The translations under genes and the position numbers were made by a program. Of a stretch of 64,000 nt of DNA, positions 10,086 through 18,326 are shown piece after piece; positions within the stretch are counted from its first letter, which is position 1; the number at the start of each line of letters is the position of its first letter. The stretch spans positions 124,001-188,000 of the forward strand of contig NZ_JAQGJM010000009.1 in assembly GCF_028290625.1 (NCBI RefSeq), read 5' to 3'. The stretch is from Devosia sp. Lineage in GTDB: Bacteria; Pseudomonadota; Alphaproteobacteria; Rhizobiales; Devosiaceae. The notes under the pieces were generated by a model, which saw only the letters and a program-made list of their open reading frames with translations, searched no databases and was not told the origin of the DNA.

Positions 10086-10583
10086 GTGTCTGTGCAAAGT
10101 GACCTGGAAATCATCGCCGAGCAGGAGCGTCAGCTCGTTTTAACGCAGTTTGACGAGGACATTGCCTTCGCCATCGGCGCACATGTTCGCGAGGCGGGCA
10201 GGGCGCTCGGCAAGGGCGTGGCGGTGGGCGTGACCCTTTGGGATCGCACCATGTTCTATGGCGTGACCGCGGGCGCATCGGCCGGCAATCGCGCCTGGGT
10301 CGAGCGCAAGAGCAATACCGTGCGCCTGCAGATGAAAAGCACCTATCGCATAGTGCTCGAACGTGGCGACAAGCCGCGCCTGTTCGAGGATAGCTGGGCG
10401 CTGGACCCGGCGCTCTATGTCATCGCCGGCGGCGCATTCCCCATCGTTATGAAGGGGATCGGCATTGTCGGCGCCGTGGCCACGTCCGGCCTCAGCGAGC
10501 GCGACGACCACGAATTGTCCCGCCGCGCCATCGCCGTGGCGATCGGCCGGAGCCCGGACGATTTGGCGCTGCCAGCGGTATAG
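10086..10583 (+). CDS. UPF0303 / HbpS-like heme-degrading domain protein, copy 1
   Basis: 165 residues from GTG 10086, preceded by GGGGGAG. The sequence follows the UPF0303 (YBR137W-like, HbpS/GlcG fold) pattern: an N-terminal helix (LEIIAEQERQLVLTQFDEDIAF), the conserved WDRTMFY, WVERKSNTVRL and the glycine-rich ALYVIAGGAFPIVMKGIGIVGAVATSGLSERDDHEL. Members of this fold bind small molecules or heme, though the function of UPF0303 proteins is not settled. A second full-length family member begins 79 bases downstream on the same strand, indicating an old tandem duplication. Confidence 0.8.
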   Translation: MSVQSDLEIIAEQERQLVLTQFDEDIAFAIGAHVREAGRALGKGVAVGVTLWDRTMFYGVTAGASAGNRAWVERKSNTVRLQMKSTYRIVLERGDKPRLFEDSWALDPALYVIAGGAFPIVMKGIGIVGAVATSGLSERDDHELSRRAIAVAIGRSPDDLALPAV

Positions 10584-10662: not shown

Positions 10663-11157
10663 ATGGCCGCCGCCGACGATATCGCGCTGATCAAGAGCCA
10701 GGAGCAGGAACTGGTCCTGCCGGCATTCGACGAACATGTGGCTTTCGCGCTGGGCAGTTCGATCTATCAGCGGGCGACGGCCGAGGGGTTGAGTCTCGTG
10801 GTCGATATCCGCACCTGGGACCGGCAGATGTTCTTTGCCGCGACGCCCGGCACCAGTGCCGACAATGCCGAATGGGTGCGGCGCAAGATCAATACGGTTC
10901 GCCGCTTCCAAAAGGCGAGCTATCGCCTCGTGGCCGAGCGCGGCGGCGATGCGATGTTCTCCGAGATCGTCAATGCACCGGCCACCGATTATGTCATCGC
11001 CGGTGGCGGGTTTCCGCTGCGCGTGGTGGGGGCGGGCATTGTCGGTAGCCTGACTATTTCGGGTCTGCCGGGGCGCAGCGATCACGGGGTTGCGGTCGAT
11101 GCGCTCTGCGATTTTTTGGGGCGCGACAGAACTTTGTTTGCCTTGCCGCCGGAATAG
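10663..11157 (+). CDS. UPF0303 / HbpS-like heme-degrading domain protein, copy 2
   Basis: 164 residues, paralogous to the preceding gene over its whole length: QEQELVLPAFDEHVAFALG, WDRQMFF, WVRRKINTVRRFQKASYR and DYVIAGGGFPLRVVGAGIVGSLTISGL line up with copy 1. The match in charged and glycine residues is clear but overall identity looks moderate, so the duplication is not recent. GAGGGAGACGCTGAC provides a good ribosome-binding site for ATG 10663. PhzF follows 65 bases later. Whether the two copies form a heteromer or have separate roles cannot be told from sequence. Confidence 0.8.
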   Translation: MAAADDIALIKSQEQELVLPAFDEHVAFALGSSIYQRATAEGLSLVVDIRTWDRQMFFAATPGTSADNAEWVRRKINTVRRFQKASYRLVAERGGDAMFSEIVNAPATDYVIAGGGFPLRVVGAGIVGSLTISGLPGRSDHGVAVDALCDFLGRDRTLFALPPE

Positions 11158-12226: not shown

Positions 12227-12349
12227 ATGCAGCGCAAGCGCGCTATCGCCATCGCAATCGAGCAGCAACAGACCCACAAGGTCCGCTTGATCGTGGCTTC
12301 CGGCCTGCTGCTCAGCACGGCGCTTCTCCTCCTTCTTATCAGCCCCTGA
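12227..12349 (+). CDS. Putative leucine-rich leader peptide of leuA
   Basis: A 40-codon ORF absent from the track. It has nine Leu, five Ile and two Val codons; the block CTG CTG CTC ... CTT CTC CTC CTT CTT lies eight to sixteen codons before the TGA. It ends 112 bases before the leuA start and its stop codon is inside the first of two hairpins, the layout expected for ribosome-mediated attenuation by leucyl-tRNA supply. The same composition could describe a one-pass membrane peptide (MQRKRAIAIAIEQQQTHK then LIVASGLLLSTALLLLLISP). GGATCGG just upstream is a weak ribosome-binding site. The regulatory role is inferred from position and codon content. Confidence 0.6.
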   Translation: MQRKRAIAIAIEQQQTHKVRLIVASGLLLSTALLLLLISP

Positions 12350-12443
12350 TAACCGACAGCTCGCCAGGCGAGCGGGTGGTCAGGGGATTGCGTCACATGC
12401 CGAACAGCAAATGTCCGGCCTGCAGAGCTTTGACTCTGGGCCG
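12343..12443 (+). promoter_or_regulatory. Candidate transcription attenuator of leuA
   Basis: CCCCTGA at 12343-12349, containing the leader stop codon, pairs with TCAGGGG at 12380-12386 and encloses GCTCG/CGAGC, forming a pause-like hairpin. CGGCC-TG-CAGAG and CTCTG-GGCCG at 12416-12443 form a second stem with a 6-base loop followed by TTT, a weak terminator just before the leuA ribosome-binding site. CAGGC at 12365-12369 could instead pair with GCCTG at 12418-12422, a possible antiterminator. The pairings were drawn by eye. Confidence 0.5.
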
Positions 12444-12461
12444 TTTGATAGGAAGAAATCG

Positions 12462-14024
12462 ATGTCCGCCGTAACCTCCGACACCAATAAAGACCGCATC
12501 TTCATTTTCGACACCACGCTGCGCGACGGCGAGCAATCGCCCGGCGCCACCATGACGCTGGAAGAAAAGCTGCAAGTCGCCGAAGCGCTCGACGAAATGG
12601 GCGTCGATATCATCGAAGCCGGCTTCCCCATCGCCTCCAATGGCGATTTCGAGGCGGTAGTTGCCGTCGCCAAGCGCGCCAAGAACTCGGTGATTGCCGG
12701 GCTGGCCCGCGCCATTCCGGCGGATATCGACCGGGCGGCCGAAGCCGTGCGCCATGCGCCGCGTGGCCGTATCCATACCTTCGTGTCCACCTCGCCGATC
12801 CATCTGGCCCACCAGATGCGCAAAACGCAGGACGAAGTGCTGGAGATCATTTCCAAGACCGTCGCGCAGGCGCGCAACCTGATCGACGACGTCGAATGGT
12901 CGGCAATGGACGCCACCCGCACGCCGATCGAGTACCTGATGCGCTGCGTCGAGGCGGCCATCAAGGCCGGTGCGACAACCATCAACCTGCCCGATACCGT
13001 GGGTTATGCGATCCCCGAAGAACATTTCCAGATGTTCAAGACCATCATTGAAAAGGTGCCGGGGGCGGACAAGGCGATCTTTTCCACCCACTGCCACAAT
13101 GACCTGGGCCTGGCTGTCGCCAATTCGCTGGCTGGCGTGCGCGGCGGTGCTCGCCAGATCGAATGCACCATCAACGGCCTTGGGGAACGCGCCGGCAATG
13201 CGGCGCTGGAAGAGGTGGTGATGGCGCTGCGCACGCGCGGCGATGCCATGCCGTACCAGACCCAGATCGAGACCACGCATCTAGCGCGTGCCAGCAAGAT
13301 CGTTTCGGCAGCGGCCAATTTCCCGGTGCAGTACAATAAGGCAATCGTCGGCAAGAACGCGTTCGCCCATGAGAGCGGCATCCATCAGGATGGCATGCTC
13401 AAGAATGCCGAGACCTATGAAATCATGACCCCGGCCAGTGTCGGGATCAAGGAAACCACCCTGGTGATGGGCAAGCATTCGGGCCGCGCCGCCTTCAAGG
13501 ACAAGTTGAAGGAACTGGGCTACGAGCTGGGCGACAATGCGTTTCAGGAAGCCTTCGTGCGCTTCAAGGACCTGGCCGATCGCAAGAAGCATGTCTACGA
13601 CGCCGATATCGTGGCGCTGGTGGATGACGAAGTCGGCTCGGTCGGCGACCGTATCCGCATCGTCGCCATGGAGGTCGTCTCCAAGATCGGCGGCGTCCAC
13701 AAATGCGATATGACGCTGACTATCGATGGCGACGAAACCAGTGTCACCTACGAGGGCACCGGTTCCGTCGACGCCATTTTCAACGCCATCAAGCTGGCGG
13801 TGGGGCAGGAACCGAACCTGGTGCTCTACGCCGTCGATGGCGTCACCGGCGGTACCGACGCGCAGGCCAGCGCCCACGTGCGGCTCGAGATGAATGGCCG
13901 CATCGTATCCGGCAACGCCGCCGAGCCCGATACGCTGGTGGCCTCGGCCCGCGCCTATCTCAACGCCTACAACCGCCTGCTGATCGAACGCGGCGCGGCG
14001 GCGCAGGGCGCTATGGCTGGCTAG
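12462..14024 (+). CDS. leuA: 2-isopropylmalate synthase
   Basis: 520 residues from ATG 12462, which has AGGAAG about eight bases upstream; the ATG at 12411 would have no ribosome-binding site and lies inside the terminator-like hairpin. FDTTLRDGEQSPG at residues 16-28 is the acetyl-CoA/ketoacid aldolase signature of LeuA, and THCHNDLGLAVAN at about 209-221 supplies metal ligands. HESGIHQDG and the C-terminal regulatory domain from about residue 390 (leucine feedback) are present. It condenses acetyl-CoA with 2-ketoisovalerate, the first step specific to leucine. The upstream leader ORF and hairpins suggest leucine-dependent attenuation. Confidence 0.97.
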   Translation: MSAVTSDTNKDRIFIFDTTLRDGEQSPGATMTLEEKLQVAEALDEMGVDIIEAGFPIASNGDFEAVVAVAKRAKNSVIAGLARAIPADIDRAAEAVRHAPRGRIHTFVSTSPIHLAHQMRKTQDEVLEIISKTVAQARNLIDDVEWSAMDATRTPIEYLMRCVEAAIKAGATTINLPDTVGYAIPEEHFQMFKTIIEKVPGADKAIFSTHCHNDLGLAVANSLAGVRGGARQIECTINGLGERAGNAALEEVVMALRTRGDAMPYQTQIETTHLARASKIVSAAANFPVQYNKAIVGKNAFAHESGIHQDGMLKNAETYEIMTPASVGIKETTLVMGKHSGRAAFKDKLKELGYELGDNAFQEAFVRFKDLADRKKHVYDADIVALVDDEVGSVGDRIRIVAMEVVSKIGGVHKCDMTLTIDGDETSVTYEGTGSVDAIFNAIKLAVGQEPNLVLYAVDGVTGGTDAQASAHVRLEMNGRIVSGNAAEPDTLVASARAYLNAYNRLLIERGAAAQGAMAG

Positions 14025-17235: not shown

Positions 17236-17311
17236 GGGCGAGTAGCTCAGCTGGTAGAGCAGACGACTCTTAATCGTCGGGTCCACGGTTCGAATCCGTG
17301 CTCGCCCACCA
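17236..17311 (+). tRNA. tRNA-Lys (anticodon CTT)
   Basis: A complete 76-base cloverleaf including encoded CCA. GGGCGAG pairs with CTCGCCC in the acceptor stem; the D arm is GCTCAGCTGGTAGAGC, the anticodon arm ACGACTCTTAATCGT gives the CTT anticodon flanked by T and A, and the T arm has GGTTCGAATCC. It reads AAG codons. No integrated element is seen beside it. Confidence 0.97.
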
Positions 17312-17462
17312 AAGTATCCCCTTGATATCGATATGATTTCGGCAACGCGTGAGCGTTGTCGGCGGCGTGTGGAAATGTGATCTTCACGATCGCCGAACGC
17401 GTATTGTTTTACGCAAATACCAGCTAAGTATTGCGCATCTTAAATTCCCATGTGGAACAAAA

Positions 17463-18326
17463 ATGCGCAAAGTCGCCCGGTCTCTCGTCCTCATCGCCGC
17501 CGCCGCCCATCTGGCCGTCGCGCCCATCGCCTATTCGACGCAGTCGTTCGCGCTGGCGGGCGATGTTCAATTGCCCAGTCCCTATGTATCGCGGGCACTC
17601 GATGCGGTCTTGATCCCAATCGACGCCGTCGTGCGCACCACCTTCGCACTCGATGCCAAGGATCAGGGCGTGCTGGTGCTGTCGGTGCAGCCCGGCGGCG
17701 TTGCCGACCAGCAGGGCATTCTGCCCGGCGATGTCATCTCGCAGCTGCGTGGCCACAAAATCGTCAACCCGATCGATCTGGACGAGGTGGTCTATTATTG
17801 GATCAACCACGGCAGCTACGATTTCTCGTTCAACTATTATCGCGCCGGGCTCATCGCCACGTCCACGGCCCTGATCACGCTGGAACTCTACAGCGAAGTC
17901 TTCGACATCGCTTCGATCGCAACCTGGCAGTCCTGGTCGGTCGCGACCAGCTTTAGCTATGCGGAGTTCTATTCGGAATATTCCGAGGAGATCACCTCCA
18001 GCTACGAAAGCTCCGAGACCACGATCGAAGAGACCACCAGCTCCGAGGAATTCGCGAGCGAAGTGACCTCCGAGGAAACCGCAACCGAAGAAGATGCCGC
18101 TAATGACCACGACGGTGACGGCATCGACGACGCGGTCGATACCGAGGACGGCAATGAGGGCACCGACGACGCGGCGGACGCTGACGACAGCGGCGATGAC
18201 GCAGCCGCGGATGACGCTGGCGATGACACCGCAGACGACAGTGACGACGCTGCTGACGACAGCGATGATGGCGGTGACGATAGCGGTGACGATAGTGGTG
18301 GTGACGACGGCGCCGAGGAAGAATAA
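17463..18326 (+). CDS. Secreted PDZ-domain protein with acidic calcium-binding-like tail
   Basis: 287 residues from ATG 17463 (GTGGAAC upstream). Residues 1-31 form a signal peptide ending near SFALAGD. A PDZ-like domain follows at about 55-130 (LDAKDQGVLVLSVQPGGVADQQGILPGDVISQLRG), then a Tyr/Ser/Glu-rich segment (about 160-210), then a Glu/Thr run and an Asp-rich tail from about residue 216. DHDGDGIDDAVD matches the DxDxDGxxDxxD calcium-binding loop of thrombospondin type-3-like repeats. The tail is low complexity, with the rest almost only Asp, Gly, Ala, Ser and Glu. It is periplasmic or surface-exposed; function unknown. No protease domain is present. Confidence 0.78.
   Translation: MRKVARSLVLIAAAAHLAVAPIAYSTQSFALAGDVQLPSPYVSRALDAVLIPIDAVVRTTFALDAKDQGVLVLSVQPGGVADQQGILPGDVISQLRGHKIVNPIDLDEVVYYWINHGSYDFSFNYYRAGLIATSTALITLELYSEVFDIASIATWQSWSVATSFSYAEFYSEYSEEITSSYESSETTIEETTSSEEFASEVTSEETATEEDAANDHDGDGIDDAVDTEDGNEGTDDAADADDSGDDAAADDAGDDTADDSDDAADDSDDGGDDSGDDSGGDDGAEEE

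Follow-up and report, generated by a model that had tools for sequence, protein, structure and literature searches.

The leuA leader region

The window analysed here is a stretch of 64,000 nucleotides of Devosia sp. DNA. It carries leuA, which annotated homologues identify as the gene for 2-isopropylmalate synthase, and the gene is preceded by a short leucine-rich ORF and two hairpins. The features of the region, all on the + strand, are as follows.

12227..12349, +: leader ORF of 40 codons, ATG to TGA, encoding the Leu-rich leader peptide MQRKRAIAIAIEQQQTHKVRLIVASGLLLSTALLLLLISP; recognised by its Leu tail, by coding selection and by the same layout in relatives
12305..12313, +: first Leu run in the codon listing, CTG CTG CTC
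12323..12337, +: second Leu run in the codon listing, CTT CTC CTC CTT CTT; its final CTT (12335-12337) is the control codon, almost invariant in relatives
12332..12342, +: 5' strand of the pairing P0, CTTCTTATCAG, putative anti-Shine-Dalgarno strand within and just past the Leu codons
12343..12386, +: hairpin P1, whose stem includes the stop codon; recognised by pairing in 94% of cells, by covariation and by a match to model R1 at 12314-12389 (74.8 bits)
12343-12349 with 12380-12386, +: P1 outer stem CCCCTGA/TCAGGGG, which holds the TGA
12352-12354 with 12375-12377, +: P1 middle stem ACC/GGT
12355-12358, facing 12374-12376, +: P1 asymmetric bulge GACA; GNCN opposite GGG is kept in most loci
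12359-12364 with 12368-12373, +: P1 inner stem GCTCGC/GCGAGC
12416..12443, +: hairpin P2, CGGCC..CAGAG/CTCTG..GGCCG, directly upstream of the leuA Shine-Dalgarno sequence; present in most aligned Devosiaceae, no U-tract
12445..12455, +: 3' strand of P0, TTGATAGGAAG, containing the leuA Shine-Dalgarno sequence AGGAA
12462..14024, +: leuA, 2-isopropylmalate synthase, the presumed regulated gene

The LeuA protein of the window shares 99% identity with its counterpart in a Devosia MAG (locus L034). A preliminary description of this DNA had proposed a leader ORF with nine Leu, five Ile and two Val codons that ends 112 bases before leuA; the composition of the 40 codons and the distance from the leader TGA to the ATG at 12462 are both as it gave them. 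Elsewhere in the window lie a tRNA gene (17236-17308, Rfam match), two neighbouring ORFs that by eye resemble tandem paralogues (10086-10583, 165 aa, and 10663-11157, 164 aa) and an ORF of 325 aa (17349-18326) whose sequence, by eye, suggests a PDZ-like segment and a long tail rich in Asp and Glu.

A leucine-rich leader under selection

The leucine-rich leader before leuA is real and far beyond chance, which we estimated from the ORF tails of the window and of 80 related loci. Leucine takes 8 of the last 14 codons of the leader ORF, and the runner-up among the 1,415 ORF tails of the window has 4. In the 80 related loci, 16 of 11,481 ORF tails reach 8 leucines, and those among the matches listed are leuA leaders. 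Codon choice is also skewed. Within the last twelve codons of the leader, CTT accounts for 50% of the Leu codons compared with 3.8% in leuA itself. In 97% of the 151 loci compared the final Leu codon is CTT, and in 149 of the 151 the final Leu codon keeps a constant codon position relative to the stop, with CTT fixed 12 nt before it.

Within Devosiaceae the whole leader peptide is kept, with a pN/pS of 0.50 in its reading frame and of 1.06 and 1.68 in the two alternative frames. Thus, the leader ORF is under coding selection in this family. One alternative is that the ORF encodes a small hydrophobic membrane peptide that has its own function, for which the conserved N-terminus (MQRxRAIAIA) and the hydrophobic C-terminal half of the Devosiaceae leaders could be cited. 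Outside Devosiaceae, however, the N-terminal half is unrelated and the kept parts are the Leu tail and the RNA structure only, which makes an independent peptide function very improbable.

Conservation and distribution

Conservation of the ORF and its Leu block in related leuA loci had been named as a check on the attenuator proposal. The same layout is found at nearly every leuA locus fetched from Hyphomicrobiales: a Leu-rich ORF with the fixed CTT before the stop, and a covarying P1 whose stem contains that stop. In these leaders the Leu run is followed mostly by two residues, a proline and the stop, and the leader lies roughly 80-160 nt before leuA; a few loci depart from the pattern (for example L073 and L102).

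We described the element with a covariance model, R1, and rebuilt it with more distant members as R3. In the window's genome R1 finds a single strong copy (3e-17), and the next match has 15 bits and an E value of 0.9. R1 matches 133 of 150 Hyphomicrobiales genomes, with one copy per genome, and 64 of 241 genomes of Alphaproteobacteria. With R3, 119 of 387 sampled Alphaproteobacteria are matched, again with one copy per genome, and in a phylum-wide sample of 398 the 87 matched genomes are alphaproteobacterial without exception. Among 59 fetched loci with R1 matches, the element lies about 80-190 nt before leuA in almost all; the exceptions are L115, a weak second match with no leuA, and L162 and L167, where leuA is further off. 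At L163 the script did not resolve the leader. In three loci of another family, f58 (L324-L326), the hairpin and CTTA are kept, the leader stop lies beyond the 5' arm and the leader tail reads LTRPWA; by eye, the downstream protein there resembles the other type of 2-isopropylmalate synthase.

The families of Rfam 15 leave the element unmatched in the window at the gathering threshold and in ten loci at E values up to 1. The open-access papers searched hold no account of it for Alphaproteobacteria. Outside that search lies a survey by Vitreschak et al. (FEMS Microbiol Lett, 2004), reportedly a comparative study of proteobacterial attenuators that may mention leuA.

The stop codon is held in a conserved hairpin

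The TGA of the leader had been described as buried in the stem CCCCTGA/TCAGGGG. It is, and the hairpin is conserved in relatives. The folding energy of the whole leader is unexceptional (z -1.6, with 16 of 200 shuffles equally good), and the case therefore rests on comparison and not on that energy. In an alignment of 74 loci, 94% of the P1 cells are paired, 11 pairs are changed on both sides, and the covariation score is 0.374 compared with 0.169 after shuffling, a value that none of 500 shuffles reaches. Extension to 98 loci gives 94.6% paired cells and a score of 0.391, in an alignment biased towards the structure to which it was fitted. The stop codon itself covaries with its partner in the stem (TGA with TCA, TAG with CTA or TTA), and CCTC in the stem is accompanied by GAGG. 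The terminal proline of the leader is lost in f66, a family that we take as Rhodobacterales since its leader is shared by Phaeobacter inhibens (L282), but the P1 stem is retained there. Selection thus acts on the RNA. The loss of the terminal proline in f66 and Phaeobacter leaders is also the reason why we rejected ribosome arrest at a Pro-stop.

P1 keeps one feature for which an attenuation model has no need, the asymmetric GNCN bulge and the GGG that faces it. This would be understandable if a protein bound P1 to block or free leuA, with the leader peptide mattering little, and Seliverstov et al. have proposed protein binding for the LEU element of Actinobacteria (PMC1262725). A protein that reads P1 does not, however, predict selection on Leu codons, fixed spacing, a bias towards rare codons or coding selection in the leader. 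We consider this explanation quite improbable.

The Leu codons are complementary to the leuA Shine-Dalgarno sequence

In the window the Leu-codon block and the leuA Shine-Dalgarno sequence can form a helix of 11 bp (P0). Pyrimidine-rich Leu codons partly complement any Shine-Dalgarno sequence, and we take as evidence only the excess over partners swapped between loci, an excess that kinship of the sequences may somewhat inflate. The mean duplex energy is -14.84 for native partners and -13.09 for swapped ones (sd 0.23, z -7.6). In the same test four other segments gave z values of 0.0 to -1.6, and the upstream leader segment paired with the Shine-Dalgarno sequence gave -2.0. In a wider set of segment pairs, the Leu block with the Shine-Dalgarno sequence reached z -8.4 and the two P1 arms -13.1, with the remaining pairs between -4.0 and +3.5. 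Among the latter, the Leu block with the segment right after P1 shows a weaker excess (z -4.0), for which we offer no explanation, and the 3' arm of P1 with the Shine-Dalgarno region gives -3.3. The effect recurs in 30 separate loci, mostly of f66, that had not been used to find it (z -4.2, 0 of 200 shuffles, control +1.0).

The register of P0 differs between clades and none is fixed. The pairing reaches the codon after the last Leu codon and follows its changes, as the pairs in Devosiaceae (TTCTTATC/GATAGGAA), in L096 (GTCCTTAGA/TCTAAGGAC) and in f66 (TCCTTAGC/GCTAAGGA and TCCTAATC/GATTAGGA) illustrate. This covariation of the Leu block with the leuA Shine-Dalgarno sequence points to control of translation initiation. 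Some f66 genomes (L260, L261, L302) have another ORF between the element and leuA, cupin-like by eye in L260 and L261. The Shine-Dalgarno sequence of this intervening first gene has an 8-bp match to the Leu block in L260 and L261; in L261 the leuA Shine-Dalgarno region has a stronger pairing, with another leader segment, than the region of the first gene has.

Intrinsic terminators are rare at leuA

In classical transcription attenuation, as in the enterobacterial leu operon, stalling at the Leu codons would favour an antiterminator over an intrinsic terminator, here P2. The Leu leader, the hairpins that follow it and the position of P2 close to leuA, followed in the window by GTTT, are all consistent with such a switch. 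We searched all leaders with one script for terminator-like sites, defined as a GC hairpin with at least 5 T in 8. Sites of this kind occur in 6 of 151 leuA leaders (1.4 expected), five of which have their T-stretch within or ahead of the Leu codons. Among ilvB leaders of the same order, that of the window's own genome included, 22 of 30 have one. The script finds terminators in only 1 of 7 trpE leaders and can miss real ones, so the contrast between leuA and ilvB is the informative comparison. A scan of the window region for intrinsic terminators and promoters found none. Transcription attenuation through an intrinsic terminator, as the preliminary description had suggested, is therefore unsupported.

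The individual parts of that proposal point the same way. The second stem before the leuA ribosome-binding site is present, but the short T-run assigned to it amounts to the three T of GTTTGAT before AGGAA and is absent from most Devosiaceae. The suggested antiterminator strands CAGGC (12365-12369) and GCCTG (12418-12422) both exist in the window but are not conserved in relatives. The 3' arm of P1 does not covary with intergenic segments (z 1.6 to -1.6 for the P1 arms). Classical attenuation is an unlikely account of this leader.

The scarcity of terminator-like sites would suit another mechanism, in which translation of the leader governs Rho-dependent termination within the 5' UTR and stalling or release at the stop codon sets the access of Rho, as in tnaC. 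The stop codon inside a conserved hairpin and the Pro-stop that ends most Hyphomicrobiales leaders would fit as well. The terminal proline is not conserved, though, since most leaders of f66 and Phaeobacter have SRL or IRL as their last residues; the stop varies between TGA, TAG and TAA together with its stem partner; and the complementarity of the Leu block to the Shine-Dalgarno sequence is left unexplained. We therefore regard control through Rho access as improbable.

A probable translational attenuator at leuA

A leader-peptide translational attenuator is the best-supported reading of the element, and we put its probability at about 0.7. Intrinsic termination, Rho, a binding protein and a functional peptide are less favoured because each leaves one main finding unexplained. 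In what follows, stalling, the sense of the response and the parts played by P1 and Rho are inferred. The leuA mRNA would begin with the small ORF and its many Leu codons. With leucyl-tRNA in good supply, the leader would be translated fast and the stop-codon hairpin P1 would reform; the Leu-codon block would then fold back on the leuA Shine-Dalgarno sequence through P0, and leuA would be poorly translated, which Rho-dependent polarity may follow. When charged tRNA-Leu is scarce, above all the reader of CTT and CTC, a ribosome would stall in the Leu block. Such a ribosome would mask the P0 strand, together with the 5' arm of P1 when it stands at the last CTT, and so leave the Shine-Dalgarno sequence free for translation of leuA.

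Both the native complementarity and modelling of a ribosome footprint support a Shine-Dalgarno sequence that would be sequestered and then freed by a stalled leader ribosome. In the model the mean cost to open the leuA Shine-Dalgarno sequence is 8.0 kcal/mol. A 30-nt footprint that starts 40 or 30 nt before the stop lowers the mean by 2.7 and 2.5 kcal/mol, and in the window by 4.6 and 3.8 kcal/mol. With starts 65-95 nt before the stop the mean shifts by -0.3 to +0.05 kcal/mol; starts at -50, -24 and -15 give -1.3, -2.1 and -1.8, and a footprint just before the Shine-Dalgarno sequence gives -0.9. Thus, the modelling supports the notion that a ribosome on the Leu block would make the leuA Shine-Dalgarno sequence easier to open. 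Against the reading weigh the small gain from the footprint at -30 in about 40% of loci (less than 1 kcal/mol), the lack of a fixed P0 register and the stronger alternative pairing in L261.

We think it rather likely that the element represents a widespread alphaproteobacterial RNA family, unmatched in Rfam 15 and in the open-access papers searched, in which the Leu control codons themselves serve as the anti-Shine-Dalgarno strand. Sensor (the codons) and lock would then reside in one sequence, and the usual pair of terminator and antiterminator would be dispensed with. If this reading is right, leucine synthesis in a large bacterial class is controlled at translation initiation without the textbook terminator, and the leuA switch stands beside ilv operons of the same order that do have one. 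The RNA family model would then also be ready for use in annotation.

Comparison with known systems

The enterobacterial leu leader (the leuL attenuator, Leu_leader in Rfam) works by transcription attenuation with an intrinsic terminator. What the alphaproteobacterial element shares with it is a leader peptide with Leu codons before a leu gene, that is, the control codons of the regulated pathway typical of classical attenuators, and the presumed signal, the charging of tRNA-Leu. The difference lies in the terminator-like sites, which are rare at alphaproteobacterial leuA. The Leu_leader model itself gave no match in the window at the gathering threshold or in ten loci at E values up to 1, and attenuation of the enterobacterial type is not borne out.

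The proposed mechanism resembles that of the ermC and cat leaders, where ribosome stalling in the leader ORF opens a sequestered Shine-Dalgarno sequence. In those leaders, however, an antibiotic provides the signal, and amino-acid control codons do not make up the sequestering strand.

Attenuators of ilvB and ilvIH in Alphaproteobacteria, reported for Caulobacter (PMC4117421), likewise have branched-chain leader peptides and come from the same class. They carry a GC-rich hairpin and a T-run for transcription termination, which are mostly missing at leuA. The ilvB of the window's own genome (L222, G000:C18, around 116 kb, outside the window) has a leader with the tail SILVVRTRIGTVG together with a terminator, AGGTCCCAAACGGGGCCT-TTTTTATT, an arrangement that resembles a classical attenuator.

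The element model has no match in the sampled genomes of family f21, which we take to be Rhizobiaceae because LeuA of L279 (genome G080) shares 97.5% identity with a protein of Rhizobium leguminosarum. These genomes have the other 2-isopropylmalate synthase type (26-27% identical). The absence of the element from the sampled Rhizobiaceae, the best-studied group of the order, may explain why it escaped notice. A Leu-rich leader does precede the other synthase type in Rhizobiaceae (L276-L279, L283 of S. meliloti and L287 of R. leguminosarum). In several of these loci a stem CGGTTGCCGGGT/GCCCGGCGGCCG encloses TGAGGAGC, which is able to pair with the downstream GCTCCTCG, and an apparent H-type pseudoknot resembling the actinobacterial LEU element can be drawn. 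Stems can be drawn in the same way in Nocardia farcinica (L284) and Tsukamurella (L286).

The LEU element of Actinobacteria (Seliverstov et al. 2005, PMC1262725) lies upstream of leuA and has a pseudoknot fold, and no terminator is described for it. Its plan is similar to that of the alphaproteobacterial element: both stand upstream of leuA, have a leader ORF with a run of Leu codons and form a base stem of Leu codons with the leuA Shine-Dalgarno sequence. In place of the LEU pseudoknot, however, the element here has one hairpin, which carries the stop codon in its stem and for which no pseudoknot partner is supported, and for this reason we do not file the alphaproteobacterial element as a LEU element. 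In the test as cited in PMC1262725, mutations in the leuA leader of Streptomyces coelicolor had effects inconsistent with classical attenuation, a result that we count against the translational attenuator reading. If that reading is right for Alphaproteobacteria, it offers a direct test of whether the unexplained actinobacterial LEU element works alike.
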